Shown here piece after piece: positions 2,120 through 48,689 of a DNA stretch of 64,000 nt. Position 1 is the stretch's first letter, and the number at the start of each line of letters is the position of its first letter. The translations under genes were made by a program, and so were the position numbers. The notes below the pieces were generated by a model that searched no databases, was not told the origin of the DNA, and was given only the letters and a program-made list of their open reading frames with translations. The DNA is from Cristatella mucedo (taxonomy: Eukaryota > Bryozoa > Phylactolaemata > Cristatellidae): assembly GCA_009760855.2 (NCBI GenBank), contig WPIO01000065.1, forward strand, positions 507,001 to 571,000. The letters run 5' to 3'.

Positions 2120-4700
2120 AGAGCATGCTAAATAACATAATGTTAATAATAATAGCAATACATGTGTACAGCACCATCAGAGAACTCAACCTCTTTCTAG
2201 GCGCTTCATATAAGCTGTAATGCAAGCATGATCAAATGGTAAGTGGTAACATGCACAGCATCAATGGGATATGTTTAGAGGTAACATGCACAATGTCAGC
2301 CCCCATATGCACACATAGCACAAGTCAAAAGGATCTACAAATGCTTGCATTTTTAGCTTCTTTTGTCAAGTCGGGGATGTCGTTATGTCAGTCGGGACTG
2401 AGGTCTGGGCTTTGGCAGCATACGAACTAAAGACACGGTTTCCAAAAGATTTGGGAGTAGTTCTGAAGGTAGGCTCGAGCCAGAAAATGAATAGTCGACG
2501 GCAGATCCTTGAAGTCGATACGCTGCTTGATTGGGAGCCAGTGGAGGTCGGTAAAAAGGTGGCACTCCCGACAGATAAGCCTAGCTGTTGAATTTGGTAC
2601 CAACTGTAAGCACCTGATTGCGCAGGCCGGTAGACCAGCAAGCATTGAGTTGCATAAGTCGAGATGGAATGATATAATTGTATGGACCAATATAGATGTG
2701 GTAACCCTGTCTAAACAAGCCCGAATTGTAGCAATGTTATGTAGCTGAAAGTAGGCAGACTTGATTGTGGAGCTGATGTGGTCTTCTAACAGAAGGTCAG
2801 TTTGGAACATAACACCTAGATTTCGTGCAGATTCAACAGGAGATATGCTGGCAGAGCCGATTGTGGGCTTTCCAATTTCCTAATCACACTTGGTTTGCTC
2901 CCAACTAGTAAGTTGGCTTTATCATCATTTAATTTAAAAAAGTTTGCTGCCATCCATGTGCAAATGTCAGCAAGGAAGTTGAGAGAATTCGATGTGCAGG
3001 AGGGCTAGGATGGATCAAAGCAAATGCATAACTAAGATGGAGAGCGTAAACTTAGAAAAGAAGCTGACCAAGCAAAATGCCCTGAGCTACCTCAAACTTC
3101 AGTGTTTCCTCGGATGATCTTAGCCCATTCACATCAACACTCTAGAGGTTCCAATTGAGATAGGATCTGAACCGTTGAAGTGCAGTGCCAGTGATGCTCA
3201 GGCGAGATAAGAGGTACTGGAAAAAAACTTGGTGATCAGTGGTATCAAACTTTGCCGAAAGATCAAGCAGAGTGACTTTACACAAGTCTGCATACCTGGG
3301 AAGATCGTTATACACCCGAAGCAATGCTGACTCGGAGTAGTGATTAGCTCTAAAACCAGACTAGAACTTGATAGGTGTTAAGTTTCAATATAAGAGTTCA
3401 GCTGGTCTGCTGCAACTCGTTCTAGTGGCTTTGATAGAAGCAGCAGAAGGGTGGCTGGGTGGAAGGTGCTCAAGTTCTCTTGGCCTAGTGTTGCTTTCTT
3501 AATTCGAAGCCTGACAACAGCCTTTTGAAAGGTGCTGGGACATAACCTGAGGCAAAGGACATACTTATCAAGTTTATATGCATGGAGGCAGCAGATCTAT
3601 GCATTGCAAAAATAGGACAGTGGGAATAGGGTCTAGAGCAGTGGTTCTCAACCTGTGGGTCGCGACCCCTTTGGGGGTCGAACGAACCTTTCACAGGGGT
3701 CACTTAAGATAATCAGAAAACATGCATTTCCACATTTCGCACAGAATAATTTTATGGTTGGAGGTCGCCACAACATGAGGAACTGTATTAAAGGGTCGCA
3801 GCATTAGGAAAGTTGAGAAGCACTGGTCTAGATGGTAAGTATAGTCTTCTTAGACTGGGAGATGAACTCCAAAATGAGGTTACCAGTGGCAGTCTTGGAT
3901 GCACACATTAAGGTGCTTCACAGAATCGCGGGAGAGAAGTACTGTAAAGTTGCTATTAAGGGATAGGAGTCCAGAAGGGATGCTGCTACCTTACGGATGA
4001 GCTCTCTGGTCTTGCCAGTCTTGGTGAAAAAGAAGCCAGAGAAGCGATCAGCTAGATCGCCACAAGGATTAATAGGTAAGGAGCAAACTTGGAAGTGGTT
4101 AAGGAGATGGTTGATAGTAGAAATGAGTATATTTGGATTGCGCAACTGCGATTCAAAAATATTTTATATAAGCTAGACTTGACCTTTGCCAGGATCGATT
4201 AGTATAATCTACAGTAGTCCTGTGCCTGTCAACAGACAGTCAGTACTGCTCTGTTATATGCTTTCTCAAGCTGTTGCTTAGTAGACCTAGCTAGTTTAAT
4301 GTCTGTGGTAAACCATAAGCCGTCTAGGTGAGGGGAAACTGCTTAGCCAGAGGAGCAAACTCGTCAAGCATGTCAGCTAACGACGTGTTCTAACATTCTA
4401 CCAATGATGACAGGTCGGAAGAGGGATTGCGCTGCACGGGCGAACAAGATACTCTCGTGCGGACAGCATCGATGTTAAGGGTCTTGAGGTTTTGCGATTT
4501 ACAAGTGATTTGAATGCAAAGGAGGGCACACACTGTAGACTGAATGAGATTGGCATGTGGTCAGATGAGCAGAATTTGGTAATTATTGGGGATGATAGCA
4601 TATAGTTGCGGGAGAATATTTGATCGGTGTGTGACCGCTGTTGTGAGTACGGTTATGCGGATGAGCCACAAGAGAAAATGAGTCAGTCAGTGTACAAAAC
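2120..4700 (-). mobile_element. LINE-A copy, long but decayed, hosting a hAT insertion
   Basis: Reading down the minus strand this copy has endonuclease remnants (about 4400-4690), the start of the reverse transcriptase, a degraded RT core around 3140-3330 with the 'LLDLSAKFDTTDH' type motif A, the C-terminal RT tail near 2430-2800 and the LINE-A 3' UTR. It ends at about 2120-2210 in the 3' hairpin and an ATT-rich tail. Frameshifts and stops are frequent. The copy is interrupted at 3639-3825 by a short hAT element, so it is older than that insertion. Confidence 0.8.
3639..3825. mobile_element. SPIN-like non-autonomous hAT element with target-site duplication
   Basis: This is a 187-bp element with terminal inverted repeats of about 16 bp: CAGTGGTTCTCAACCT on the left, and CAGTGCTTCTCAACTT read from the right end on the other strand. 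It is flanked by an 8-bp duplication, GTCTAGAG (3631-3638) and GTCTAGAT (3826-3833), the length typical of the hAT superfamily. Aligned to LINE-A at about 32607-32670, the flanks rejoin cleanly, so it inserted into a pre-existing LINE. The ends and interior closely resemble what I remember of the SPIN ('Space Invaders') non-autonomous family, known for horizontal transfer among animals. The family name is recalled, not computed. Confidence 0.85.
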
Positions 4701-16400: not shown

Positions 16401-19400
16401 CCACTATCCAGGTTATAACAGTTTGAGATCTGCATAGTGTGTAAGTCGGTGTCATAATCCATAGCAGGGGCAGGCATCGATAGGATAGGCAGTTCGAGCG
16501 GCCGGTATTCGCTACGAGCAGTAAAGAAGGGATTAAATACTACGAAGTGCAGCAATGTTCGTTGGTGTACCATCATGCCTGCATTTGCCGTGGAGGATAT
16601 AACAGAAAATTTACGAATACAGATAAGAGTATGCAAATATTGTTCACAGAAATATCTGTATCACTCACACGCAGGCACGCGAACGTACGCACTCACGCGA
16701 AAGTATATACAGTATACTCACGCACTCGTACACACACCCATGAACACTTACTTTATATATAGTATAAGTACGTGTATACTTTGTTCTTTTTATAAAGCAC
16801 CCTAAGAGAACTTAATCTCTATCCAGGCGCTTCACATACGCCGCAGCTCTCAAGCCCGAGACCTGCGTCATCAAAGGTGACTTTGCGGTGCTGTCTTTTG
16901 ATTGGGCAGTATAATTAACTTTGCAGTATGTACGTACCTATATTTACTTAAAAATTTTCCTGCAAAACTGTTTCAGATGTTGGACCTGTCGTACAACAGT
17001 CTGCTTCCCGACGATCTGCTAACTCTTGGTTGCTTAAGGAAGCTTAAGGTTCTTTATCTCACTGGAAATAATCTCTCTTCACTCCCAGTTAAAATGGCTG
17101 CATGCTACAGCACTGGAAGGTAAGAACTAATTAGTTTCTTTTATCCTGCGATTCTGAAAGCATAGTTTTTTGGTAAATGCTTTTCTCAACAGCTATTACA
17201 TGTCAGCCTATCATTCTAGCCACCTTGCTGCAAACTTTTTGCAAGCAAGTTTGATCCTTGCAGTGACCCGAAAAAGTGGAGATACCCAAACTTGGAGATT
17301 CTAGGCCTTGATCACAATGAGCTTGATCATATACAAGCGTTCGCACCATTGGCTGGTCTAAAAAGGTATGCACTATCGCGAATATCAGCATGTCCGTTGG
17401 TAATTTTGACCTCAATTCTTTCTATATATCAATGTTGGCTGGTGAGGACAACTCTAATACTGTATATGGTAGCCGATTTGTCTGCATATAAATGTGTGTT
17501 GCTGCCATTTTTAGGCTGATGCATCTGTCGCTCGAGCACAATAAGATATCATGCGTGCCCCATCTTCAAGCGAGAGCAACGAAGGGATCCTCTAACGGCA
17601 GTCAGGTCGCAGCAGGGCATGCCTCTACGTCTATGGTCAGCCATGGACTGAATCCTGAAGTCACTGGACCATCAGACAGCCTGCAAGACAAGGAGCCCCC
17701 AGATCGCTCAGGTTAGCGCTTGCCAGCTCTTTGCCAGCTCTTCAGAATTTCAACATATACGGACTGTTATTAAACTATGTATTAGAAAGCCTGCAGTCAG
17801 TTCGCGAGCTAAACTTCTTACCTGAAAGCAGTGGACCTCATCCATACAGTGCACTGAAGTGTAAAATAGAGCAAATCTGACAGTCAGCTTCAATATATAA
17901 GGAAGTTTTACCAGACACGGCTACATGCTAATGGTCTGTAGACATTCTCTGGACCAGCAGCATTGATTTGATGTGCGACCTCAGGGCCGCATTCGTATTT
18001 TGCCATTTTGACAATTAACTTTCGATCTCGGTTGAAGTATTGGGAAGTTCTCGGTTGCAATCATCGTTCAGTGTTATTATGCTGCCTTCACTTCAACGGC
18101 GGTGTTCCACTTAGGTCGACTCATCTTTGAGAAAACAGTAAGCTCCTGTTGTCATTTTGACGTTAGTAGCCAGGCTTTCTTGTTCAGCTAATGACCTAGT
18201 AAATATCGAATAAAAAGGTGCCATCTGGGTATTTTACTTATTGATTTGAAGTGAAGCTTGGATTAACGAAATACAGATTCACACCTTGGGCACCGCTATT
18301 ACAGGTTAAATTGTTGTCCGTTCTCGCGGCTGGAGTTTATCGACATAATGCAGGCTAGCTACTGTGTGCTACAACTGTTTACTTATCTCTCCCTCTCGAT
18401 CGCAAACGTGAAGTTAGACCAACAGTTCGGCAAAAGTTAACTTGGTATGCAGCACTAGGCTACGCTATGTTGCAAATTAGGCGGTGGTGATTACCGTAGG
18501 CTATATTCACTGTGTATCCTTCGGAATAACATTGAACACTTTTGTCTTAAGGCCTTAACATGGCTTCACCCTGCTGATTGGGTGGGATCAGAAATCGCCA
18601 GTCTTTTTGAAAACGAGAGATATTTTGATATCTCGGAGGGTGCAGGTATATGTTACTTTGAAAATCTTGCCAGGCTTACACTTGATGGATTTTTTGCCGT
18701 TGAAAGCTAGTTATAATTCATCAGGATGAATGTACCATACGAGCCAGTAGTTGTGCTAATCTTTAGAAGAATGATTTGCTTTATCTACTTAACACATTAG
18801 CAGTGAATAGACCGTCGGATGATTGGCAAATGCGCTTGCATTATAATTCTTAGCAGAAATATCTGCTTACTTGAATTAACAGGCATTGTACTCAGTTGTC
18901 CTCACATATGTAGTATTTTTTGTCACAGACTTTTGGTTTGCCTTGATTTTAGTGATACGTAAAGACCACGCCAATGGTGAATACACGAAGGAGGAGTCCG
19001 ACATACCAAAGGATGCCGATAGTCCATCGGGACATATTGATGATGGCGAAAAACTTAGTACGGGCGATGCTGAAGGAGCCATTCCATTTCCGGAGCTCAG
19101 GTTTCTGTCGTTGGCTCACAACAATATCAATTCAGAGGAGGATCTGCTGCCAGTTGCGGCCTGGCCCTCACTGGAGGAGTTGTTTCTTCATGGAAACCCT
19201 CTGACAGAAACTCACAGCGGCGACCCACCGCTGCTCAAGCGATTCCTCCAAGATGAGCTCGGAATCGCAATTTTTCGAAAGAAGCCTGTCTTCGAAAAGC
19301 CAAGTTTTGAAGTGCCACTTGCAAAACCCGGACGTTTGGTATGTATTATGATCAGTAAACGTCTAGCCGACATCCTATAACTTGTTGTAAAGCCCGACTT

Positions 19401-22400
19401 CCTTGTGCCTAAGCAAGCTAAGTTATACACAGTCACTGCATCCATTCAGATAGAGTAAATATGCATGGACTGGAGGTCTTTGCTGATTTTTTCTGCTCAC
19501 GATTATATAGATGTGCAATTTATCTCTGTCTGTAACTCCACAAAGCCAGTCCGTAATTCAACAAAGCCACACAGACTGAGTCAGTGTTATCAAAGAGAGT
19601 TTTCTATAGCGCATTCAAAGCCTATATTGCTTTCGGTACGCATGCGGTAGCCAACAGACTTTATCTCACGAAACGAAGAGAAAGTGAGAAAGCAGCATAT
19701 ATGAGTTAAGAGGCCAGCCAGGGAAGGGAGTAGCACGAAGGTACTAACAATAATAATGATGCATTTGCATAGCGTCCTAGGATAACTAAGTCTCTTTCTA
19801 GACACTTTACGTATGCTGTAAAGGAAGCATGAGACAATGATTAGTGGTAGTATGCACAATTTTAACAGGCATAACATAGTTAGAGATGACATGTGCAGCG
19901 TCAACATATAAATATGATTAGTGCTAGTATGCACAGTGTCAGCATGCATAAGCACACAAAGGTCGAATCACAAGGACTAAATTCTTTGATTATGTAGATG
20001 CGTTTTTTTCTTTTTAAATGTCAAGTCAGGCGATGTAGTGACGGTATTTGGGAGTGAGTTCTAGGCTTTGGGAGCATGTGAACTAAAGGCACTGTCCCTT
20101 AATGATTTGAGGTTCTTCTGATGTATAGCTAAACTATTTGAGTCAGAAAAGCAGGTTACGATTCCTAGGCTTAGGGGAGAGTAGTTCTGATAGGAGGTTG
20201 GAGCTAATGAATAAAAGAACTAAAAGTAAGTGACAAAACCCTGAATTTGTTGCACTGCTTGATTGGGAGCCAGTTCAGGTTGACGAGACGTGGTGTAATG
20301 TAACAGCTACGACGCTCACGACAGACAAGCCTAGCTGCAGAGTTTTGCACCAGCTGTAATCGCCTCGCCCTTAGGCCTGAAGACTTTTCGAGTAATGAGT
20401 TATAGATGTAGAGACAGGATTTTAAAAATGCGTGGACCAACTTGGTTGTTGAATCCCTGTCTAAGCAGGCCTGAAGTTTTGCAATGCCATATAGCCAAAA
20501 GTAGGCAGACTTGATGGTGGAGCTGATGTGGTCTTCTAATGAAGGGTCACTTGAAACAGGACACCCAGATTGCACGCGAATTCTACTAGAAATATGCTGG
20601 CCGAGCCCATTTTGAGGGATCGAGCCATTTTGAGGGATACGCTTTCAATTTCCGAGTCGCAAATGGTTTGCCCATAACTAGTATGTTGATTTTATCGCCA
20701 TTCAATTTGAGAAAGCTTGCTGCAATCCATGTGCAGATGTCAGCAATACATGCAGCAAGTGAGTTAAGAGAATTGAACGTACTGAAGGGCTCGAAGGGAT
20801 CAAAACAGAAGTACAAGCGAGTGTCATCTTCATAGAAATGAAAGCCTAGATTTTGCTTGGCGATCACTAAGGCAAGATGGAGAGTATAAACTTTGAAAAG
20901 AAGCGGACCAAGCACAGAGCCCTGAGGTACCTCGAACTTCAGTGTTTCATCGGATGATTTTTGTCCATTCACATCAACATTCTAGAGGTTCCCACTGAGA
21001 TAGAGTCTGAACCGTTGCAGTGTAGTACCAGTGATGCTCAGGCGAGATGAGAAGCTCTGGAAAAGGACTTGGTGATCAATGGTATCAAACAACGCTACCG
21101 AAAGATCAAGCAAAGCAAGCATAGAGACTTTACCCCAGGTCTGCATTCCCGAGAAGGTCGTTAAATACCCAAAGTAATGCTGACTCGGCGGAGTGATTAG
21201 CTGTAAAAACCAGACTGTAGCTTACCCACTAGGTGTGAAGTTCCAATATAATAGTTCAGCTGGTCGGCCACTGCTCGATCTTTGATAGGAATAATATAAG
21301 AAAGACTGGGTGGGAATTTCCTAAAGTTCTCCTGGTCTAGTGTTGCTTTCTTAATTAATGGCTAAAAAACAGCCTTGTTGAAAGATGAAGGGATATGGAC
21401 TGAGGCTATGGGAATATTTATTGTGTTAGTTATACATGGCAGCAGCAGATTTATGCATCTAAAAGTAGGATGGTGAGAAATTAATCTGGAGGATTAGTAG
21501 TCTTCTTTGACTGGGAGGTGAATTTCAGGATGAGGTCACTCGTAGCTCCTTTTAATATAGACACTGAGGTGCTGCACGGAATGTGGGGGGATTCCTGTAG
21601 GGTTGTTATTGAGGGACATGAGTTCAGATGGGATGCTGCTACCTTAGGGACAGACCCTTTGACCTTGTCTTTCTTGCTGAAAAAGAAGCTAGAGAAGGGA
21701 TCAGCGAGATCGCCAAAAGGAGCACTAGGTAAGGAGACAATCTGGGAGCGGTTACGAAGATTGTGGATGGTACACATCAGCATTTCTTTTATTGTGCACC
21801 TGTGACTCAATAATGTTATTAAAGAAGCGAAACTTGGCCATTCCCAGGATCAATCGGTACGATCTACAGTATCAGATCCTAGTATGCCTGACGATGGACA
21901 GCCAGTCCTGATCTTTTAAATGTTTTCTCAAGCTTTCCCTGAGTAGAGCTAGCTAGTTAACCATAGGCCGTCTGGGCGAGGGCGCTCATTCCGCTTAGTC
22001 AGATAGGCCAACTTATAAAGCATGTCAGCAAGTGAAGTGGGAGCTCAGGATGGCTTGAGATGACGTGCCACAAGTGGAGGTTATATGTCTTTGTGTATGA
22101 ATTGTGGAAATGAGTTCCACAGTCGAGGATCTGCCAAGCAAAAGCGTCAGCCGCCAACAGTCAATCAAACGGCTAATTTATTGTCTGTAGAAGTCCTGAG
22201 GGCGCGAGGAGGCTGAAACTGGTGCAGCAGTTCAGCTAGGGATGGAGTCAAGCCGAGGCGAACCTTTTTGGTCAGCGTAAGAACTTTATTCTGTATTGAT
22301 CAACCGCCGCCGTCGAAGCTCCTTCAGCAAAGGAGACACGTGGTCAAAGCTCTAGGATTTCTAGCAAGTCTTGCAGCCATATTCATCATCAGCTGCGGTG

Positions 22401-30879: not shown

Positions 30880-33755
30880 AAAAATAGTAATAATTCACTT
30901 GATAAAGCGCCCTCAGAGAACTTAATCTCTCTTTAGGCGCTTTACATTTGCTGCAAAGTGAAATGCAATTGAATGGTAAGTAAAATCATGCTTGAAAAAC
31001 AAACGAAATGAATAATATGGTTAGGGGTGACATGCACAGGGTCAGCACGCAAATGTGATTAGTGGCAGCATGCACAGTGCCAGCACGCATAAGCACATCA
31101 AGGACGAATCACAGAGACCCACTAAATGCTGTCCTAAATAGGTGTGTATTTAGGTTCCTTTTAAATGTGGTCGGGTCAGGGGATGTTCTGACGCAGGTCG
31201 GGAGGGAGTTCCAGGCTTTGGGAGCATATGAACTAAATGCACGGTCTCTAAAGGATTTGAGGTTTGTATGAGGTATTTCTAGACTGTTGGATTCCGAAAA
31301 GCCGGTGGTACGATGCTTGGCCTGATGGGGTAGTATATCTGACAGATAGGCTGGAGCCATAGAATGAAGGGACCTAAAAGTGAGCGACAAAACCTTGAAG
31401 TCAATCCGTTGCTTGACTGGTAGCCAGTGCAGGTCGGCGAGAAGTGGAGTAATGTGGCAACTGCGACGCTCACGACAGACAAGCCTAGCTGCAGAGTTTT
31501 GCACCAGCTGCAATCGCCTGATCGCACATGCTAGTAGGCCAGTAAGCAGTGAGTTGCAGAAGTCGAGACGAGATGTCACGAATGCATGGACCAACTTGGA
31601 CGTGGTATCTTTATCTAAACAAGCCCTAATTTTAGCAATGTTATGAAGCTGAAAATAGGCGAATTTGACTGTGGAGCTGATATGGTCGTCTAACGAGAGG
31701 TCGCTTTGGAATATGACACCTAGATTTCGAGCTGATTCAGCTAGAAATTTGCTGGCAGAGCCAATTTTGAGAGTCAGCCTTTCCAATTTGTGAATCACAC
31801 TGGGTTTTCCCATAACTAGTAAGTTAATTTTATCATCGTTAAGTTTTAGAAAATGTGCTGCCATCCATGTGCGGATGTCATCAATGGATGCAGCTAGTGA
31901 GTTTAGAGAATTTGAGGTGCTTGAAGGCTGGGAGGGATCAAAGCAAAGGTACAACTGAGTGTCATCCACATAGAAGTGAAAGCCTAGATTGTGCTTGGCA
32001 ATCACATCAGCAAGAGGCAGCGTATAAACCGTGAAAAGAACCGGACCTAGCACTGAGCCCTGAGGTACTCCATATTTCAGAGGTACTTCAGATGATCTTT
32101 GTCCATTCACGTCAATACTCTGGAGTCTCCCACTGAGATAGGACCTGAACCACTGCAGAGCAGTGCCAATGATGCCCAGGCGAGATGAGAGGCGCTCTAG
32201 AAGAACTTTGTGATCGATGGTATCAAAAGCTGCCGAAAGATCACGCAAAACAAGCAGAGACATTCTATCCATGTCTGCATTCCTAAGTAGGTCGTTGTAT
32301 ACCCGAAGCAATGCTGACTCTGTGGAGTGATTAGCTCTAAAGCCAGACTGGAACTTACTAGCAAGGTGTGAGGTTTCGATATACGAGTTCAGCTGGTCCG
32401 CCACGACCCGTTCCAGTGTCTTTTATAGGAATGGTAGAATTGAAACTGGGCGGTAGTTGCTCAAGTTCTCTTGGTCAAGTGTAGCTTTCTTGAGACGTGG
32501 CCTGACTACAGCTTTTTTGAAAGGTGCTGGGACATGACCTGAGGCTAATGACATATAAATTATGTTAGTTATGCATGGCTGCAGCAGATCAATGCAACGT
32601 TGGAGCAGGACAGTGGGAATAGGGTCCAGAGGACTTGTTGTCTTCTTTGATTGAGATACAAACTTTAGGACTAGATCACTAGTGACCTGCTTAAATGCAG
32701 ACATTGAGGTGCAGCCAGGAACCGAGGAACAGCATTCTAGTGGGGAGGTTGTCATCGCAGGGATGGATTCCCTGATCTTGTCTATCTTCTGCACAAAGAA
32801 TCGAGAGAAGCGATCGGCTAGATCATCATTAGGATCATCAGGTAAGGAGCTAATCTAGGAACGGTTGAGGAGATGGTTTATTGTCGACATCAGTATTTTT
32901 GGATTGTGCATCTGTGATTCAACAATGTTTTTATAAAAAACTAGACTTAGCCTTTGCTAGGATCGATTGGTACGACCTAAAGTAGTCTTCATATGCCTGT
33001 CGATGGACAGTTAGTCCGGATCTTGTGTATGCTTTTTCAAGCTTTCGTTTAGTAGACTTGGCTAGTTTAATGTCTGCGGTAAACCATAGGCCGTCTGGGC
33101 GGGGGCGCACAGTGCGCTTTTGTCAGAGGGGCAAAATCGTCTAGCGTGTCAGCTAGTGTCGTGTTGAAGCTATCTACCAATTATGACAGATCGGAGGGAG
33201 GATTGAGCAGCAGAGATGAAGCAGATATTCTCGCACGGACAGCATCGATGTCAAGGGTCTTGAGGTTTCGCGATTTACAGGTTTTTTTAGAGGAGGATGT
33301 GGGCACACACTGTAGATTGAATGAGATCTGCAAGTGGTCAGATAAGCATGATTTGGTAATAATTGGTGATGACAAAGTGCAGTTATATGAGAAAATCTGG
33401 TCGAGTGTGTGACCCTCGATGTGGGTAGGGCCATGCACATGAGCCACAAGAGACAATGACTCAGTCAATGCACGAAATTCGGTGCTGAAAGCGTCAGATA
33501 AGTTATCAAAGTGAACGTTGAAATCACTCATTACGAGGAAGGATTGATTTCTTGCACACAGAATCGAAATGAGATCGGAGAAATCCGAGATAAAGGAGGA
33601 TTTGGTACCTGGTGGATAGAGGCGTAACGGTGCAAGTAATAAGCTAATTCTAGCGAAAGAGCATTGGGCCGTCGAATAGGTGACCGCAAACTGACATTGC
33701 AATTGCACAAATATTACACACACGCACACACACACACACACGCACACACACATAT
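30880..33755 (-). mobile_element. LINE-A, best-preserved copy (endonuclease plus reverse transcriptase)
   Basis: Minus strand, in order: the C-terminal half of the AP endonuclease (33753-33181, 'FLVMSDFNVHFDN', 'SDHLQISF'), the N-terminal RT region ('SNYRPVSILPFL', about 32430), and an unbroken 431-codon RT frame (32404-31109). The RT frame has 'LRDLSAAFDTIDH', '[13 protein letters not shown]' and catalytic 'FYVDDTQLYL' (YVDD at about residues 145-148, where YADD is usual). The 3' UTR ends in the hairpin AAAGCGCC...GGCGCTTT (30907-30950) and an ATT-rich tail. One nonsense codon (TAA at 32423-32425) and a frame change toward the endonuclease break it. It is 5'-truncated at a CA repeat. L2/CR1 group. 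Confidence 0.9.
33716..33750. repeat. (CA)n microsatellite at the LINE-A 5' truncation
   Basis: An interrupted CA/CG dinucleotide run lies exactly where LINE-A coding similarity ends. Confidence 0.85.
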
Positions 33756-35689: not shown

Positions 35690-36110
35690 TATCTTCGTCA
35701 GTAACTCCACAAAGCCACAAGGACTAAGTGGGTGTTACTCAGGAGCGTCTTCTGGAGCGCACGTAAAGCCTTTTAAAGGCTTTCGGTACGCATGCGGTAG
35801 CGAACAGACTTAATCTCGCGCAGCAAAGAGAAAGTGAGAGCAAATAGCTGAGTCAGGAGGGCAGTCGACGTACAGAGTAGAGCATGGAAGCAGCCGCTCG
35901 GGACGGATGGAAAGGATGCGCCTCAGTTGGCAGCAGAAGAGTAGCTGACGTTGCGTAAGAATTGTGGAAGTGACTTTCACAGTCCACGTCCACCAGAGCA
36001 AAGGCTTCTGTCGCCAACGGGTGAGCGGATAACTAACGTACACTAGACAAACTAGCTGGGACACGGAGAAGAGTAGCCCTAGCCAGCATGGGAATCCCTG
36101 TCCCACAATG
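35690..36110 (-). mobile_element. LINE-B 3' fragment
   Basis: LINE-B end and 3' UTR (GTAACTCCACAAAGCCACAAG, CTTTCGGTACGCATGCGG) followed by RT C-terminal remnants, minus strand. It marks the edge of the GC-rich domain. Confidence 0.7.
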
Positions 36111-36598
36111 GCTACGCAAGTAGCCTAGTTTTTACTGCCGCATGTCTAGAGGAATCGACTCGCGCTATTTGCGGCGCAGCGCGAATCCATCTGTCGCCAG
36201 AACAACAAGTCCGACGCATCGGACTGGCCAGCAGCTGGCCAGTCTGGCTGACGTCTGCTGGAATTTCCTGGCTGGTGAGCGAGCGTGCAGTTTGAATCGC
36301 GCCGCTGGTCGAGCGAGCGTAGAGAGGACGAGGCAGAGCCCAGCTCGCGGCAGACTCGGCGCAGCTCCGCTCGATCGCCAGCTAGATATACGTTCCGCGT
36401 GCGGGCGCGCAGCTGGGACCGCTGGGCGGCGATGGCGTCAGCTGACGACGGCACAGAGCGCGCGGCGAGTGCGATGAGCTCGAGCCGGCCGGCCGCTGCG
36501 CTCACCATTATCGCAGGCTGGCCGTCGAACTAGGCCGCCGAACGGAAGGAAGGAAGACACCTAAGGCTTCGCGGGCTAATGCTCACTGCAGCAGCATC

Positions 36599-36697
36599 AT
36601 GCCGCTCGAGCTTCGAGTGCTGCTGCTGCTGCTGCTGCTGCTGCTAGCTCTCCAGCCTAGCAGCCGCAAAGTCCTTTGGCTTTCAAAGTTACATTGA
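36599..36697 (+). other. Short Leu-rich open frame over a CTG repeat
   Basis: This 32-residue frame starts MPLELRV, then nine leucines (CTG repeat), then ALQPSSRK, so it looks like a signal peptide. No donor or downstream exon could be assigned. The likeliest explanation is a CTG microsatellite read in one frame. Confidence 0.15.
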
Positions 36698-37619
36698 ACG
36701 GAGACATGCGGCACTGCATCGGCGCCGCGATTTTGCTCCTATCATCAGGCGACATTCAGCGGAAGCTGAAAGACTCACGACTCGACCTTGGCGGCGGCGC
36801 GGTCTTGGCGTCACAGTGGCTACAAGCCGGACGCAGCGGCTTAGGCAGCTTTTTTGCGGCCCTAACAGTGCTGGGCCGCAAGCGGAGCGCTTGCTGCGCG
36901 AGTCATTGCCGACGAGCGACGAATATGACGGCGAGGGAGGCCGCGAACGTGCGCGCCGCGAGCCGCTGCTAGCGAGCTGTCGCTCCGGCCCAGGTATGCA
37001 CGCGGCTGTGCCGAGACGGAGTAGCGGAGCGCGGTGGCTACGAGGAGAGCCCGCGCCGTAACGTAACAAGTCCGCGTCCTGAGCGTCGAGTCCCTGTACA
37101 TTTTGCAGCGACGCCGCACGGTTAAAGGCATCCAGTGTCAGCCGCCGCGGCGTGCAATTACGCTCTTGCGGGGCGCCTGGAGCGCCGCTGGACCGAGCGG
37201 CGAAGCGAAGGCACGGCACGGGAAGCACGGCGCGGGAGCGGCTCTCGCAGCCCGCCGAGCGGCCCGCGCGCCGAGAGCGGCTCGTCGAGCTCGACCGGCA
37301 TAGACGGCATAGATTTCGCACGAGCGCTATGCCGCCTGGCCGCAGAGCGCGCCCCAAGTGGCCACTGCAATTTAGAAGCCGCGAACGGTAAACCTCGGCA
37401 ACGCTAGTCTGCGCCTACCAGCAGCAGCAGCAGCAGCGCGCCGCCACCGCCGCCGCCGCCGCCGCCACCGCCTTTGCACGGCGACGGCGAGAGCGTCGCT
37501 CGGAGGCCGGGCGAGCCGGCTCAGGGTGACCATCTCGCTGCGACGGCGGCCCCGTCGCCGCCGTCGCGTGCCCAGTGTCCGTCCGCATCCGATGAAAAAT
37601 GCGCCGGCGGCTTTGTCGC

Positions 37620-37793
37620 GATGGCACACTAGGTAGGGTGGTTGCTTTCACGACCTCGGGACCGAGGTCGTGGGTTCGATTCCTGCAGTGGGCGATTCTT
37701 TATCGCCACTGCAAGCGGTGGTGATAGCCGTAAAGGCTCTTCTGTCGCTATATAAAAAGAGGCTGTTTAATCAGCTAGGATTTATTTATTTAT
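37620..37793 (+). mobile_element. SINE-B copy, nearly complete
   Basis: A tRNA-like head (GATGGCACACTAGGTAGGG) and a perfect B box GGTTCGATTCC (37673-37683), preceded by a CACGACCTCGG/CCGAGGTCGTG stem. Then the conserved body AGCCGTAAAGGCTCTTCTG and a tail GAGGCTGTTTAATCAGCTAG ending in ATTT repeats. It is very similar to 27392-27598. Confidence 0.88.
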
Positions 37794-39674
37794 TCGCCAG
37801 CGAGCGTCGAGCTGGCCTCGGCGAAGCGTTGCGCGCCGTCGGCGAGCATTGATCCGCCGCCGCCGCAGAGCAGTAGCCTACTGTCACCGTGTCGCGGCCG
37901 CGCGCTCCGCACTTGGAAGTCGAGCCTCCCTCCATGTGCGCTCGTCGGGTTGGCATCGAGCGCGTCGAGGCCGGGCCTCGATCTTGGCAAAACGGAAACG
38001 AGCTCGAGTCGGACGAATAGCTACAGTGCAGCTCCGGAGAGCACTTATTGGACGGGTGGAGGTTGATTGAGCGCCTGGCAAGCGCTCGCCGTCGAGCGCC
38101 GTCCGACCTATTCACTCGCCGCCGCTCCGCCCAACGACGCCGGAAGCGCGGCGGATGCGCTCCCCGTTTGGCCGCCGAGCGGGCCCCGCTCGCGCGCCTC
38201 TCGGCTGCTACGCTTCGCTTTAGCTCGCCTCGCCTCGCCGCGTTCTTCGAGGAGCCACTCGTTCATTTGGTCGCGCGCGCACGCGCGCGCGTCGAGCATA
38301 CGGCGGTGCAGGCGTCGTCGTCGTCATTTTTCCTAGAGCCTCTGCGCGCCCACTCCGCGCCGCCAGCGCCATCGCTGTCCCGCTCAGCGCGAGCGCAGCT
38401 CACACATCGCAGGAATCGATGTGACGAGCAATCGATGAGCAGCAGCTTACCGCCGGACACTTTCGCAGCGACCAATAAGCCAACTCTGCTGTTAGATTGC
38501 GTCACGCGGCGGTAAAGGTTGATTCGTATAGCGGTTGCGGTTCGTCCTTTAGTAATTGTCCTTTTGAATTCGCGTTGGCGCAAGATTGCTCGTCGCTGAG
38601 GCCGAGGCGGTTGTCGTGCATGCGGACGCACAGGAGGCGGTGCTAAGATGAGCAGCGAGCGGCTGCACGGCACGGCACGGCACGGCAACCTCGGGTTTCG
38701 TGCGCAGCGTCGGCAAAGCGGCCCCGGCGGTGTTCTGTCGCATCGGCAGATAATCGCTGACCGGCAGCGCGGCGGAGGCGCCGATTTCTCAAAAGTAACA
38801 ATAGCAACAACAAAGCGCGGCCGTATGCGATTGTCGCTGCTCACCGTCGCTACGGCGTTCCGGCGTCGTGAGCGGGCTCCGCTGCGACTCCACGGAGGAC
38901 CCGTGGCGGCGGCGCGCTCCACCTCAACGCTGGCGGCTTCTTCAGTTGAATCGAGCATCGCAGCGTAGCAGCGCGTGTAAGCGTCGCGGCGAGACCCCAG
39001 TTAAGCCGGACAGCCGTACACCTTACCTGAGGCGAGTCGTCTACTGCTTTTCTAGTGCGACAGTCGAGACGCAGGAAGCGCCTTACGCGTGCGCGCCGCG
39101 TCGCTTCCGCGAGGAGATGAGCAGACGCGGCATGTGCTGGCGAGTTGGCGCGCAGCTCTAGGCGTCATCGTGCGCGCGCGCGCTCACAGAGGTGCGAGCG
39201 ACGTCTTAGATTCCCTCTTGGCGGCGGCGCGCTGACTGCCGGCGTTCTCCTAACTAAACGATCGGGAAACTTTGACATCCGGTTTGACGGGGCGTTAGTG
39301 AGGGATGTTAGTGACTTTCGGCTTTTTCCGGCGTTTCCTGCTGTCTCGACATGCATACTTCCCTTGGTGCTTGCCCGCAGGCTATCGACGGTGGGCTGCG
39401 GTGGGTGCGCACTCGCCGCTGTCACGAGGGGACCGGCGCCAAATGCAACGTCCGCGTCGCCGCGGCCGTTACGTTACTGCCGCGCGGTGCAGCGCTGGCG
39501 TGCCGCTCCGCGCCGTCGGCGAGCGGCGCTCGCAGCCACCAACCCGACGCTTGACGCGGCAGAGGCCTGAGCTGCCTGACGGGAAAGGATGGGACGCTTA
39601 GCGCCCGTCTCGAGAGGACACGAGAGCGCGCGCGCGCACGCTCGAGCGCTAGCAAAGGCTGGCTTGCCGCTGAG

Positions 39675-39838
39675 TCGCAGCCCAGAGGACGGCGCTCGTA
39701 TCCCGGGTCGCGGGTTCGATTCCCGCAGCCGGAAGCGCTTACGGACCGATGCGAGCTGCGTGACGGCGCCCGTAAGGCTCTTCGGCCGCTCTGCGTCCTG
39801 GAGGCTGTTGAGCAATCAGCTAATCTCTTTATTCAAGG
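39675..39838 (+). mobile_element. SINE-B copy, diverged and GC-enriched
   Basis: A canonical B box GGTTCGATTCC (39713-39723) sits within GCGGGTTCGATTCCCGCA. The body CCCGTAAGGCTCTTCGGCCGC and tail GAGGCTGTTGAGCAATCAGC follow. Differences from the other copies are mostly to G or C, matching the local composition. Confidence 0.75.
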
Positions 39839-41345
39839 GCAAGTGTCTCGTCACGATGTGATTGCGCGCGATTACGCGCGCTGGCGTCAGAAGAGACAGC
39901 GCGAATGAACAGTACTCGAGGGAGACGCGAGAGCCGATCCGGAGGCGGTCGAGCGCATCGCAGCCGCAGCGTGTGCGCGTCGCCTGGCTGAGGGTAGTAG
40001 TCCTTTCGCGAGGCCGTCGCGGTCGCGAACCTTTTTAATATTTTATCGCGACCAGCGCCGCGGCTCACCAAACCAGTAGCCCTGGTCGAACGAGTGCACT
40101 GAGTCAGCGGCGTGGCTGGCCGCAAGCCAGCCTCGAGATCGCGAGCGGCGGCTGAGGTGACGTCGCTTTTTAAAGAGAAGCTACGCGAGCCGAAAAGTGA
40201 GAGGACTGTGTGGCGGCGGCGGCGGCGGCGGTGAGGAGGCGCATAACGCGTAGCGTGACGAAAAGACGCCGCAAGTGGAGGAAATCCGCTGAGATGCGCC
40301 GTAAACTCGGCTGAGCGAGAGAGTCAGACGCGCTTGCTCGCCCGCAGTTGACGGCAACTAAGGCGCTGCTGGGCGGAAGAACCGTGCCAGGCGGCGAAAT
40401 CGTTAGAGCGTCGCGTTAGGCGCTGTGGCGCCTCATCGCGAGGGATCGCGAGAGAGGGATCGCGCGCTCGGGCAGTCGGGCCGCGCCCGGGGCAGGTCGG
40501 CGCGAGGCCGACCGAGGCGTTCGCACCGACGCTCTGCACGAGGTGCCGCTAGAGGTTGGCCTTCGGGCGAGTCAGAAGAACGAGCGACGTCAGCTGCTCG
40601 GCAGCACCGCCGCGACGTGTGCGGTCTCGCTTCGCCATCGGCCCGGCGTCGCGATTATTCGGAGGCCGATGAGGGATCTCGTCCTGTGCCTTGAGACGGA
40701 GCTCGGCTTCTGGGTCTCAGCACAAGGCGGGGCTGGTCTCGCGCTCGCTTGCCCGCTGCACTTGCCGCGAACTGGCCGCTCAGCCGCGTCGGCTACTAAA
40801 TGATAAATATGCCTGGGGAGTCTGCAGAGGCTGCGGAATTGACCTTCTTCCTGTAACCGGATCTTCGTCGCGGCCGCACTCGCAGTCTATCGCGAGACGC
40901 CGGGGACCGCTATGGACGCCAAGGGCACGTAAGATTCGAGCGAATGGCCGCGATGCTTCCACAGGCGCAATCTCGCTCGCCCGCGTTCCCGCGCGTCAGT
41001 CCTAATCACCTCGGCATCTTCGTTCGCCCTCGGCCTGTCGAACTGCACATGCTGCGCTTCGGGGCTTCTCGTGTCGGGACACTCGCAACTGGATTGGCTA
41101 GCGAAGCGAGACGCACGGAGGCGGGCGAATCAAACAGATCGGCAGGTAGCATGCTGCTGCATTGAGAGCAGCTTGGAGTCTTCGCTTATACACGAGGCCG
41201 TTCGTCGGTCATCCGCCGGCACCAACGAACGCCGGTGCATCGCCACCCCACCTTCGCCGCCGCCTCCGCGGCCACCACCTCCTCCTCCTCCTCCGCCGCC
41301 GCCGCCGCTGCCGCCGTTAGGGACCGCGCGGGCGGCAGGCGCGCG

Positions 41346-41399
41346 GTCCTGGATGAGCACCCGCCAGCGCGCCCGCCTTGGCGGGTGCTCATCCAGGAC
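41346..41399. repeat. Perfect 21-bp inverted repeat with a 12-base loop
   Basis: The left arm 41346-41366 (starts GTCCTGGATGAG, ends CCGCCA) and the right arm 41379-41399 are exact reverse complements, separated by GCGCGCCCGCCT. It can form a long hairpin in DNA or RNA. It lies about 0.9 kb upstream of the KCTD start codon. Confidence 0.95.
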
Positions 41400-42061
41400 G
41401 GGTTCCTGACGGCATCGCGTCGCGCATCGAGCGCCGCTGTCACACCGGTTTCCACGGATCACGAGAGCCAGCTCTCCTTCGCTGGAGGGGTGCTTCTCCG
41501 CTCCGTCGATGCCGAGCCAGCTCCGCGGAGACGACGACGACGGCTTCGCACCCGCCGAAGTCGGATCGCGCATTCGCCGCGGGCCCGCGTTACCCTGGGG
41601 TGGTCAGCATATTGGGATATTGACCTTATTGGTTCTTATTGACGAAGAACAAATAAGGTGCGCGTCCACAGTCGATTATCGCTTTCTCGACGCAGGAAAT
41701 GACTCGATGGGAGCATGACGTCTGCTTATCCTAGGAAAATGCCGACCCAGAGAGGCCGGGCGAGCGGCGGCGGCGGCGATCTGCGAGCGCCAATCAGAAT
41801 GCGCGCTCCACTCGCCCGGCTCCGCACCGTCGGCATCTCTCCGTAGGTGGGCTATCGAGCGCGGGGCTGCGCGCGGAGAGCGGCACGCGCGCGCGCGAGC
41901 TGCTCTCGAGCGCCGGCATTAGCGCCGAGCCACGGGCGACTGATGACGGCCCTCGTCGCGCTGTTCAGCACGCCGGGCCGCCGCGGAGCTATTGATCGGC
42001 GCCGACAATCTGCATTCACGAAGAAACTATTTAATTTATTCCAACGACGTACCGGCCTCCA

Positions 42062-42089
42062 CCATTGGCCGGTCAACCCATAAAAAGCA
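42062..42089 (+). promoter_or_regulatory. Possible KCTD core promoter (CCAAT-like and TATA-like)
   Basis: CCATTGG (an inverted CCAAT box, 42062-42068) is followed by CATAAAAAGC (42080-42089), a TATA-like motif, about 50 bases before a (GA)n tract and about 225 bases before the start codon. Confidence 0.3.
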
Positions 42090-42139
42090 ATCCTCCCGCG
42101 AGTAATTGCATTAGGGAGTCTCGGTTGCAACGGTCTGGG

Positions 42140-42140
<1 letters not shown>

Positions 42141-42200
<60 letters not shown>
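42141..42200. repeat. (GA)30 microsatellite, probably in the KCTD 5' UTR
   Basis: Uninterrupted GA run of 60 bases ending 111 bases before the KCTD ATG. Confidence 0.95.
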
Positions 42201-42202
<2 letters not shown>

Positions 42203-42311
42203 CCAGGGAGACCTGCAGTGGGTGCGAGAGAGACCGACGCAGAGCGAGCGAGGGGAGAGAAAGAGGGAGAGAGGAGGAGAGAGGGTGGTGCACGAACGTC
42301 CAACGAAGGCC

Positions 42312-42566
42312 ATGTTCCCTGAAGTGATCGACTTGAACGTGGGTGGCGTCTTTTACACGACGTCGCTGACGACGCTAACTAAAATATCAGGGAGTTATTT
42401 TGCCGACCTGTTCGCGAACCATCTTCGAGCGCCCACCAAGGACGCGCACGGCCGCTACTTCATAGATCGCGACGGCGTGCTCTTTCGCTACGTGCTCGAG
42501 TACCTGAGGAGCGGAGAGATACAGCTGCCCGAGAACTTCCAGGAGACCGAGCGCCTCCGGCACGAG
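42312..42566 (+). CDS. KCTD8/12/16: KCTD exon 1 (BTB domain)
   Basis: Eighty-five codons, from the start codon to 'FQETERLRHE' just before a GTATGG donor. It covers most of the BTB fold and ends where the last BTB helices continue in exon 2. Confidence 0.9.
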
Positions 42567-42971
42567 GTATGGGCGCCACTCGGCGCCGCCAGAGCGCGCC
42601 GTGGCGCGGGCGCCGCCAGAGCGAACGGTCCGCTGCTGGGCTCTCGCCCCGACGGCGCCCGACGGCTCGATCCACGCTCGAGCCTCGGCCCCGCCACAGC
42701 GGGCTCCGCGATCCGCGTTCGCTCCGCACCCGCACGCGTGCCAACAGATCCATTCACGCTGGGCTGCCGAGCCGTTTTTGGGCACAGTCAGTCTTCACGC
42801 ACGGTCGTCATCGGCCCGATTCGCGAGATACGAGCATCAAGCTGCATAGTCGACGGCACGACGCCCTGTCTCTCGACGGGCTTGACCGGGTCGGGCTCTC
42901 TCTCTCTCTTTCTCTCCATCTCCCTCTCTTATCTCTCTCTTCCTCTTTAAATCTCTTTCTTTTTACCTCTC

Positions 42972-43058
<87 letters not shown>

Positions 43059-43748
43059 CTATTTATACTCTCTGTCTATAATCACCTGCCAATATTATAT
43101 CTCTCCTATTCTCGCGCTCGCTCTCATTGTCATTTGCTCGTCCGTCGTTCGTTGCAGGCCCGCTTCTACAGGCTCGGCGACGTGCTCGCCGAGCCGTCGC
43201 CGCTCGCCGAGCGGCGCAATGGCAACGCGCTGGCCAAGATTGGTGAGAACAGCGGCGGCACCGCATTGCCGCCCTTGCCGGCGGCCCAGACGCCGTGCGG
43301 CGGCAGCGGCCACGGCCGGCCGGGCGACGGCTTTAGGGGTGTCATAACGATCGGCTACAGGGGCACGTTCGCGTTCGGCCGCGAGGGCACAGCCGAGGTG
43401 AAGTTCCGCAAGCTCACGCGCATACTTGTCTGCGGACGGGTGTCGCTCTGCCGCGAGGTGTTCGGCGAGACGCTGAACGAGTCGCGAGACCCCGACCGCG
43501 GCTCCGAGGACCGCTACACGGCGCGCTTCTTCCTGAAGCACAGCTACCTCGAGCACGCATTCGACATGCTGCTGGACCGCGGCTTCCGGCTTGCCGGCTG
43601 CTGCGGCACGGGCACCAGCTCCGCCGGAAGCGGTCTGTCCGAGACGGGCGTGCTGCCGCAGCAGAAGGCCGTCGCCGCGGCTGACAGCGAGGAGGGCAGG
43701 TGGAACCACTACAACGAGTTCGTGTGGCAGAGGCTGTCCTCTGCGTGA
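42312..43748 (+). CDS. KCTD8/12/16: KCTD8/12/16-type BTB protein (whole gene, two exons)
   Basis: Exons 42312-42566 and 43158-43748, joined in phase 0 across a GT-AG intron, encode 281 residues. Residues 2 to about 105 are a BTB/T1 tetramerisation domain ('FPEVIDLNVGG', 'YFIDRDGVLFRYVLEYLRSG', 'RFYRLGDVL'). About 143-281 form the H1 domain, with the diagnostic 'VFGETLNESRDPDR' (about 186-199) and 'ITIGYRGTFAFGR'. In vertebrates KCTD8, 12 and 16 bind the GABA-B2 receptor C terminus through the BTB domain and shape G-protein signalling through H1. The BTB part here also resembles KCTD6, so orthology within the family is unsettled. The ATG at 42312 is the first in frame and has G at -3. No C-terminal extension like that of KCTD8/16 is present. 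Confidence 0.9.
42974..43051. repeat. (CT)n tract in the KCTD intron
   Basis: An uninterrupted CT run of about 78 bases, preceded by interrupted CT-rich sequence from about 42895. It is the reverse complement of the (GA)30 tract upstream of exon 1. Confidence 0.95.
43158..43748 (+). CDS. KCTD8/12/16: KCTD exon 2 (BTB end, linker and H1 domain)
   Basis: It starts after GTTGCAG with 'ARFYRLGDVLAEPSPLAERR'. A Gly/Pro-rich linker follows, then the H1 domain, ending at TGA with 'NHYNEFVWQRLSSA'. A small-residue insert ('TGTSSAGSGLS' onward) lies late in H1. GC content is very high. Confidence 0.92.
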   Translation, partial: ARFYRLGDVLAEPSPLAERRNGNALAKIGENSGGTALPPLPAAQTPCGGSGHGRPGDGFRGVITIGYRGTFAFGREGTAEVKFRKLTRILVCGRVSLCREVFGETLNESRDPDRGSEDRYTARFFLKHSYLEHAFDMLLDRGFRLAGCCGTGTSSAGSGLSETGVLPQQKAVAAADSEEGRWNHYNEFVWQRLSSA

Positions 43749-44264
43749 TGGGGGCGCGCGGCGCCCACAGGGTGCTGCTCGGAGCGAGAGGCCGCGCCGA
43801 TGCTCGCCCCGCCCCTCCCCCGAATGACCGGGCCTGGCGGCGACTTTACGGAGGCGGCACGACGTCGGAGCTGACAGTGGCGCAGGCCGGCCAGGCCACA
43901 CCGTCCGCCACGCGCGCACGAGCCTTACGCGGCGCTTGGTTTCCGTCCTCGTCGCTTTAACCAGCGCGCACTCATGCACCCGGCCGCCACTCCACGGCGC
44001 CAAGACGGAGACGGCGATGGCAGAACAGTCGAGCGTGCCCATGAGCGGCCACCCGCAGCTCGCTAGACGACACGGCTCGACAGCACGCTGCCAGGCGGCT
44101 CGACAGCGCGCCGGCTCGACGGTACGCCGGTCAGCGAATCGGAAGACAACCGGCTCGCTCCGCCGTCAGTCGCACCGCCGTCCGGGGGGGCGGTCATTCG
44201 TCGAGGGCGCTCGGTTCAGGCAGCGGGTGCGCCTTGAAGTCGTTTCTTGCTCGTCTCGTTCGCA

Positions 44265-44265
<1 letters not shown>
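43749..44265. other. KCTD 3' flank, GC-rich
   Basis: Probable 3' UTR and flank. I saw no AATAAA hexamer within the first kilobase, so the transcript end is unknown. Confidence 0.35.

Positions 44266-44350
<85 letters not shown>
44266..44350. repeat. (CCG)28 trinucleotide repeat
   Basis: An uninterrupted run of CCG/GCC of about 85 bases, about 520 bases after the KCTD stop codon. Confidence 0.95.
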
Positions 44351-44354
<4 letters not shown>

Positions 44355-44580
44355 ATTAGGCGCCGCAGCCGGCGGCTGCGACTGCGGAAGACGGTCGGTG
44401 GATGCTCATCCGCGGCGGCGGCGCCGTCTGCGGCTCACGCGCGCTCGCGCCGCCCGCCGGCTGATCGAGCGAGCGGCGCGGCTTCGAGTCCGCGGGTGCG
44501 CAGGGCGAGCCACGCGTGACGGAAATACATTTGATCGCCACTCTAGCCGTTCCAGCCGACGACGGGGCACACGCCGAAGC

Positions 44581-44610
44581 GCTCTCTCTCTCTCTCTCGC
44601 TCTCTCTCTT

Positions 44611-44701
<91 letters not shown>
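44581..44701. repeat. (CT)n microsatellite
   Basis: A nearly continuous CT run of 120 bases with a few interruptions at its left end; pure from about 44625. Confidence 0.95.
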
Positions 44702-44705
<4 letters not shown>

Positions 44706-46130
44706 TACGCTCGCGCTCCTCCGACAAGCCGTCGCACAGCCGCGGCGGCTGCTCGCGAGCGCCCGCGGCGCGCCATCTCAAAGGCTCGAGCCATCTGCTG
44801 CTCACTCCAGCCGGCGGCGGTGCCGACTCGGCTCGACGGGCACCGTGCCGACTCGGCTCGGTGCGGCCTCGACCGGCCGCGGCTCCGCATGCCCGCGCGA
44901 GGTAGCGACGAGCTCGCACTCGCTCGCCCCCTCCCCCTTCCCTCTCCTGTTGCTCCTCTCGGGCTGGGGCCGACGTGCCTGCGGCGGCTGCGAGACGCGA
45001 GCGCCGCTTGTTACCGCGCTGCCGCTGCCGCTGCGGATCGGCGGCTGTGGTCCCGCCCGAAGCGTCACGCTAAAGACTGACGCTAAAAGTCGCCGAGCGA
45101 GGGGCGGCCACCATTCGGAGAGCACCGCCGACGCCGCTCTCTGACGGGGGTCTCCGGCGGCTCGTTGCCGGCCGGCCTGCCGGGTTACGAGGCGAGGTCA
45201 GAACGGTCAGTCCCGCGGCGGCCGGCGTCCGAAGAGCGAGCGCTCTTGCCGCGCGCCGCTTACGTGAAGGTTATTTTGGGCCTGCGTTCAACGGGAAGCT
45301 CGACGCGCCAGCGAAAAGGCGAAGCAGCCAATGAACGCGCCGGATATTCCCGCAGGACGCACACGAGCCGCTCGCGCGCGTCGGGATTCTTAGACCTGGG
45401 CGTGCGACTCCGGGGTCGGGTTATGGGTCACCCATCGCTACGGCAGCTGCAGCCGCCGTGCAGCAGCGTCGGAGTACAGTCTGCTGTAGCGACTGCTCGG
45501 CCCCGACGCGTACACTCCAGATAGTAGTGGCAGAGCGCTGCAGTTCAAACGTCTCCAGTCGCAGACTAGTCCGACAGACAAGCCTCGCTGCAGCGGCAGC
45601 GTCGTCGAGGGCGGCCGCCGCGCGCTCAAAGTACTGATCAATTCTAGCGCTGGACACTCTGGACGAACGACTCATTAACGCGGTGGTTTGCCGCCATTCG
45701 TCCGGGATCGATGACTACATTTTGAATAGGATACTTTGCACTATGGCTGCTAATGCAAGATATGCGACGTGGAAGCGCTCGGCCAACGCTCGCAGGCAGG
45801 GAGAGGGGCGGCGGCGGCGGTGGCGGCGGCGGGGGGGGGGGGCTAGAAGGCTAAAGCTCTCGCGTGGGTCCGGCTGAAAGGAAGGGGTCTGTGGCTGCAC
45901 CGCCAGCCGAAGTAGCCGCCGCTCAAACCGTCGACTATGACGAGAACGACTCCTTTCGCGAACCTCCATGGAAATCCGCGAGCTCTTGCGGCTGGCTCGC
46001 CAGCCCGCCGCCGGCTGCCGGCAAGCGGCCTCAAAGAGCGAAGATTTTAAGAGCAGAAGCTTGCCGCCAGAACCTTGAGCGCGCTGCGGCGCGCCTTCCT
46101 TCGGCGAGCGCTCTTCAAAGCGTCGCGAAG

Positions 46131-46165
46131 AGCAGCTGCCGCCGCAACCGCTGGCGGCAGCTGCT
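46131..46165. repeat. Perfect 13-bp inverted repeat
   Basis: AGCAGCTGCCGCC and GGCGGCAGCTGCT flank the 9-base loop GCAACCGCT. Confidence 0.9.
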
Positions 46166-47950: not shown

Positions 47951-47988
47951 CGGGAGCGTCCGCGCCGCTGCTGGCGCAGACGCTCCCG
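47951..47988. repeat. 16-bp inverted repeat, one mismatch
   Basis: CGGGAGCGTCCGCGCC and GGCGCAGACGCTCCCG pair at 15 of 16 positions around a 6-base loop. Confidence 0.9.
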
Positions 47989-48211
47989 ACTTCTTTAATT
48001 GAGGCGAGCAAGTGCGCGCGCGCGGCTGTAGTGGAGTGCCTTCGTGCGATCGGGCGTCGGCGCTGCTCGCGGCAGCAGCGCGACGGCGATCGCGTGGTGC
48101 GGGCGGCGGCGGCAGCAGCGAAAACCGCGCGAGGCGGCGCGATTGGGAACGTTGCGAGCGCTGCGAACGCTCTGCGGCGGCGGCAGCGCCGGTTCGCACG
48201 ATTCAATCTCG

Positions 48212-48242
48212 GCTACTGGCGCGAAATCTGCACGCCAGTAGC
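48212..48242. repeat. Perfect 10-bp inverted repeat
   Basis: GCTACTGGCG and CGCCAGTAGC around an 11-base loop. Confidence 0.85.
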
Positions 48243-48689
48243 GGAGAGTGAGTAATCTGCAAATTGACGTCGTCGTGACCGACTCATTAGCAAATGTTCG
48301 ACGAGCGGGCGGCACCGACGAGGCCACCGACGACAGTGGCATGCCTTCACCACGAGCCAGCGAACGTTCGGAGACGCTCGGTTGCCGCTGCCGAACGTTC
48401 GCAGGCCTGAGTTGGTCTCTCCACGCCGGCCGCCCTATCTTGCCGTCGGGATAGAGCAGTCGTACAAAGTTCCGGCGTCACGATATTTAGCGACAACCCG
48501 ACTGCCGAGATAAAGTGGTTCTGTTGTTGAGGCAACTTTTCTGGGTGTCGATGGTGCTTGGTCTTACTGTTAGTGTTACTTGCGGTCTTACTTGGCCAAC
48601 CCGTCATTTCGTGTAGATCCTCGTTGCTTCGGGGTCATTGCAACTCATGAGCAGGAGCGTGAGGGCATTAAGTTTCTCAAAGCCTTTAG

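Follow-up and report, generated by a model that had tools for sequence, protein, structure and literature searches.

SPIN is a standard example of a transposon passed horizontally among distantly related animals. The name SPIN_NA reportedly denotes the non-autonomous SPACE INVADERS elements of the hAT type, said to go back to work by Pace and colleagues in 2008 and by Gilbert and colleagues in 2010 and 2012. Within hAT, the Buster group shows a target preference of nnnTAnnn. Target site duplications of 8 bp are stated for the hAT superfamily in an excerpt of PMC3942097. Hosts of SPIN named in the consulted part of PMC5857283 are Galago, murine rodents, opossum, tenrec, and vespertilionid bats, and a passage of PMC4054807 counts 385 SPIN elements in the painted turtle. 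Transfers of hAT elements involving Lymnaea are mentioned in PMC4344730, in a passage that does not use the name SPIN. Finally, PCR primers that happen to match rodent genomic repeats have been printed for mouse Ate1 (PMC2767504) and rat AVPr1b (PMC4676835), in passages that leave the repeat unnamed.

The window analysed here, a stretch of 64,000 nucleotides, carries a short element that resembles a provisional SPIN_NA reference in its ends, its subterminal regions, and its 8-bp target duplications, and also in its interior when a longer, 321-bp form from the same genome is considered. Two differences can be noted: the window element is a 187-bp, internally deleted form, and its host, an invertebrate, has no close named counterpart in the list of 120 COX1 matches. 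Very probably, this element is a 187-bp non-coding, internally deleted SPIN (hAT, with a Buster-type target) whose family entered horizontally, spread, and has since decayed.

The element and its insertion site

The features of the locus are the following.

2453..4699, minus strand: decayed LINE copy, recipient of the insertion (limits set by the longest flank matches)
3631..3638, no strand: left copy of the target duplication, GTCTAGAG
3639..3825, plus strand: SPIN-type hAT element, non-autonomous, 187 bp (14/187 bases off the 187-bp consensus)
3639..3654, plus strand: left terminal inverted repeat, CAGTGGTTCTCAACCT (14/16 against the right repeat)
3639..3731, plus strand: left 93 bp, common to the 321-bp form at consensus level (8 differences in the window copy)
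3732..3744, plus strand: 13-bp stretch in place of 147 bp of the 321-bp form (counted from the ungapped consensus)
3745..3825, plus strand: right 81 bp, common to the 321-bp form at consensus level (4 differences in the window copy)
3810..3825, minus strand: right terminal inverted repeat, CAGTGCTTCTCAACTT (14/16 against the left repeat)
3826..3833, no strand: right copy of the target duplication, GTCTAGAT
21280..21753, no strand: paralogous empty site, a LINE paralogue that lacks the element

The initial annotation had delimited the element and its target duplication exactly, the two copies of the 8-bp duplication being alike at 7/8 bases. The terminal inverted repeats, matching at 14/16 bases, are of the short kind (10–25 bp) carried by hAT elements. 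It had also placed the insertion within a LINE copy, under its own label "LINE-A", and the flanks bear this out. Both match other LINE copies within the window, the long matches at 70–77%, and, once joined with a single copy of the duplication, they align without a break over the junction to 21280–21753, which therefore represents a paralogous empty site. The LINE paralogue matching the left flank includes a reverse-transcriptase domain (31109–32422, minus strand), and the minus strand of the recipient LINE is deduced from the open frames of its paralogue. An Rfam search of the window gave no match.

Long and short forms and their relation to SPIN

The comparison with SPIN is based on a provisional set of SPIN_NA reference letters and on the printed rodent primers, in place of curated consensuses. 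Thirty bases of the provisional interior were set down before any long copy was known, and the full 160 bases after two such copies (L130 and L136).

A pattern that avoids the 187-bp form and allows the provisional SPIN right half matches 18 places in the genome. Of the 17 that were fetched, 13 belong to the short family in one form or another, two have a longer interior (L130 and L136), and two combine other interiors with the same right end (L122 and L129). A further 12 loci with the right interior comprise 8 long forms that have both ends, two with longer interiors (L156 and L157), and two that show the right part only (L151 and L158); L138 is a 459-bp variant. Nine of 13 long loci passed the filter for analysis (L141, L142, L146, and L147 are out), and the fetched stretch of L136 starts inside its left end. 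Over the first 93 and the last 81 bases, the 321-bp majority consensus of these nine copies does not differ from the 187-bp consensus; the short form thus corresponds to the long form after an exchange of 147 internal bp for 13 bp. The 321-bp form is the rarer of the two. Its nine copies differ from their own consensus by a mean K2P of 0.110, and five of the eight that are testable have flanking duplications of at least 6/8 bases.

The provisional SPIN_NA interior is 95.2% identical to the 321-bp consensus over 146 columns (bases 15–160 of its 160; E 2e-65), 86.6% to L136 and 84.2% to L130 (E 4e-51 and 3e-46). The 30-base piece alone scores 19 against the long consensus, compared with a maximum of 15 in 2,000 shuffles. 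Provisional interior patterns of 29 and 34 bases, set down once L130 and L136 were known, match at 38 and 46 places in the genome, with none for the controls.

The rodent primers extend the comparison to printed sequence. Two nested mouse Ate1 primers given in the consulted part of PMC2767504 occur in order at positions 0–19 and 56–75 of the element, each with 2/20 mismatches (minimum of 1,000 shuffles, 5), and one rat AVPr1b primer from a passage of PMC4676835 has 3/21 mismatches (shuffle minimum 6). The match of the second rat primer is unconvincing (5/22, shuffle minimum 6) and is left out of the support, and four control primers taken from the same two rodent papers have 8 to 12 mismatches. 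For each rodent repeat, the comparison covers about 20 printed bases per primer.

The likeness to SPIN noted in the initial annotation is hence supported: the ends of the element are the 93 and 81 bp of a long form whose interior, in the consensus of nine copies, matches the provisional SPIN_NA. Nor is the similarity confined to the first 15 or so bases, the refuting case named by that annotation, since 93 and 81 bp are shared with the long form and the primers match as far as position 75; this subterminal likeness is to the provisional letters and printed rodent primers. SPIN patterns and similarity searches gave no match in viral contigs, bacterial genomes, phages, and plasmids.

Copy number, divergence, and target sites

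The genome searched is divided into 688 contigs that total 572,011,866 bases. With at most 3 mismatches allowed, a 30-base pattern of the right end matches 1,204 times, a lower bound on the copy number, and the reversed-pattern control not once. A first look yielded 2,229 candidates, and a match was present in all 40 that were scored. The scored copies other than the window copy are 88–91% identical, and the 187-bp consensus built from the 40 differs from them by a mean of 6.2% (non-CpG K2P 5.2%), a sample biased by the choice of copies for likeness to the window copy. A sample chosen without regard to such likeness was drawn from 20 of the 36 matches to a left-end pattern, 19 of which had enough sites; in these 19, truncated copies included, K2P averages 0.136 (range 0.043–0.436). 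The genome-wide count and divergence that had been proposed as a check are thus more than 1,000 other copies and this mean, and on the strength of the latter the family is not fresh. Copies are spread over dozens of contigs, of up to 24.8 Mb. One of them (L108) has part of its left half tandemly duplicated.

Of the 40 aligned copies, 37 allowed the placement of both ends, and L015, L020, and L032 were dropped. Flanking duplications of at least 6/8 bases are present in 30/37 copies (8/8 in nine, 7/8 in eighteen, and 6/8 in three), and the other 7/37 match at 3 to 5 bases; only 1/481 shifted control windows reached 6 matching bases. The flanks reach a mean identity of 0.83 at length 8, against 0.14–0.37 at lengths 5, 6, 7, 9, and 10, and the duplications have the 8-bp length of hAT elements. 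Of the 60 flanking octamers of the 30 passing copies, 56 have T at the fourth position and 59 have A at the fifth, giving the consensus nTCTAGAn, which agrees with the nnnTAnnn preference of the Buster group.

Origin and spread of the family

Descent would not be expected to leave a non-coding sequence so similar to a rodent repeat, and we infer from this comparison of sequences that SPIN probably reached the host lineage, or an ancestor, by horizontal transfer. A SPIN transposase would then once have acted in the host genome. Acting in trans, it would have recognized the end regions shared by the two forms, excised the element, and reinserted it where nnnTAnnn sites had been opened by staggered cuts of 8 bp. 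The 187-bp form would derive from the 321-bp form by the replacement of 147 bp with 13 bp, an exchange of the sort that faulty gap repair can produce, and would have spread thereafter; the copies are now decayed and probably immobile.

The alternative that survives best is that SPIN was inherited from an old entry into the ancestor of a wide group of lophotrochozoans, rather than transferred into the host lineage. The divergence of the left-end-picked copies (19 of 20 measured) is rather high, as an old entry would predict, and the hAT transfers mentioned in PMC4344730 include the snail Lymnaea stagnalis, in a passage where SPIN is not named. However, a long period of independent decay does not fit easily with consensus ends so near to rodent sequence, and we regard this alternative as unlikely.

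A further invertebrate host lengthens the list of SPIN hosts without being novel in kind. Its interest is that an invertebrate with long and short forms and more than 1,000 copies offers a second datable invasion outside the vertebrates, and another point for tracing the carriers of such elements. The weight would be greatest if the phylum of the host has no reported SPIN and if its SPIN copies prove most similar to the copies of a vertebrate or snail living in the same habitat. A stronger reading, that SPIN invaded a phylum without known SPIN (conjecturally, that of the freshwater bryozoans) and that a locally made 187-bp deletion form there outgrew its 321-bp parent, is put forward tentatively, with the balance somewhat against it; if true, the host lineage could link the vertebrate and invertebrate hosts of SPIN.

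Transposase source and other hAT families

In the loci read, no coding SPIN copy was seen, nor a SPIN-type transposase gene between SPIN ends. One locus (L137) has a SPIN right end, with no left end within 3 kb and no open frame longer than 90 aa, and has no similarity to the transposases of the two other hAT families described below.

The first of these families, with CAGGGGTGTCCAA ends (L062–L091), is abundant, about 2.71 kb long, and has copies up to 94–96% alike; the ends themselves were seen in six loci with printed ends. A Buster-type query, its letters likewise provisional, has 151 matches from 150 scored candidates, and the transposase of the CAGGGGTGTCCAA family is about 46% identical to it. 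The family nevertheless differs from the SPIN-type element in its length and its ends, and it was rejected as the source of the SPIN transposase: all 30 of its fetched loci are without SPIN ends.

A search for the hAT dimerisation region gave 138 matches, 63 of which have E values of at most 1.1e-16 and nearly the same top score, and look like a single young family. This second family (L041–L060 and others), four loci of which were translated, has a transposase frame that reaches about 640 aa. Its protein shares 99% identity with one public protein and 73–76% with Hydra vulgaris proteins over 71–86% of its length, a pattern that suggests recent activity and perhaps horizontal transfer. This 640-aa family was also rejected as a source, the short SPIN-type element having no match in 20 of its loci.

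With two other abundant hAT families in the same genome, and with hAT ends being short and often alike, one may ask whether the window element belongs to another family of hAT MITEs that shares only its terminal repeats with SPIN. This is very improbable: the interior of the long form matches the provisional SPIN_NA, a mouse primer printed in the consulted part of PMC2767504 matches at positions 56–75, and the other abundant family ends in CAGGGGTGTCCAA, with none of its fetched loci carrying SPIN ends.

Host lineage

The window contains a KCTD8/12/16 gene with two exons (42312–42567 and 43157–43748). Among 120 listed of 1,200 matches, named proteins reach 55% identity to its product, and the listed KCTD16 matches with a named source are from invertebrates. 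In a tree of 35 rows, the window protein groups only with one taxonomically unlabelled sequence, and the nearest named row in the trimmed alignment is from Strigamia (63% over 226 columns).

The mitochondrial contig is 21,008 bp long (L092, L098, L099; G000:C688). It uses code 5, TGA being read as W in 14 conserved columns and ATA as M in 11; from few codons, AGA/AGG are S in 4 columns and AAA is K in 2. Among the 120 COX1 matches listed, identity to named records is at most 82%, and these are mainly molluscs, with nemerteans, annelids, and a phoronid as well. One taxonomically unlabelled record is 95% identical, and the host sequence adjoins only this record in a tree of 33 rows; in most of the visible differences between the two, the record has R in place of S or I in place of M, which is what the use of a different code table would give. 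Read by eye, the open frames nad1-nad6-cob-nad4L-nad4-nad5 lie in one direction, as they do in the nemertean Lineus according to the consulted part of PMC2728741, and cox3-atp6-cox1-nad3 and the opposite-strand nad2 and cox2 are rearranged. Since the code is 5 and the named COX1 matches listed, none above 82%, are mostly molluscs, the host is very probably a lophotrochozoan, as judged from its sequences. A lamprey, which the contig sizes and GC-rich genes had suggested, is rejected on the listed KCTD16 matches from invertebrates and on a COX1 nearest to molluscs. A flatworm is rejected too, since AAA is aligned to K and ATA to M, on few codons (2 and 11), and COX1 gives no indication of that group. 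Cristatella mucedo, a freshwater bryozoan for which a passage of PMC10675955 records a public scaffold-level genome, is a conjectural candidate for the host. A globin search gave one match in one exon, and a search for guanidino kinases gave no match, which does not show absence.

Although SPIN is best known from vertebrates (PMC5857283 and PMC4054807, as far as their consulted parts go), the contamination of this contig by vertebrate DNA, which the initial annotation had named as a refuting case together with a lack of other copies, is highly unlikely and already contradicted: the copies number more than 1,000 on dozens of contigs of up to 24.8 Mb, the insertion lies in a LINE that has an element-free paralogue in this genome, and the KCTD8/12/16 gene and mitochondrial COX1 are invertebrate.

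Several minor observations were made on the same sequences. A stretch of the mitochondrial contig is present twice (L092 177–461 and L098 2537–2821), and COX1-like pieces on nuclear-sized contigs (L093–L097) are probably mitochondrial insertions in the nucleus. Around the KCTD8/12/16 gene, positions 36001–50000 of the window have about 60–68% GC and a CpG observed/expected ratio of 1.2–1.4, and the LINE-rich part near the element has a CpG ratio of 0.5–0.6, as if the transposons, but not the KCTD gene block, were methylated in the germ line. Finally, an open frame at 18880–19380 of the window contains leucine-rich repeats (weak Pfam matches) and may resemble XRRA1.
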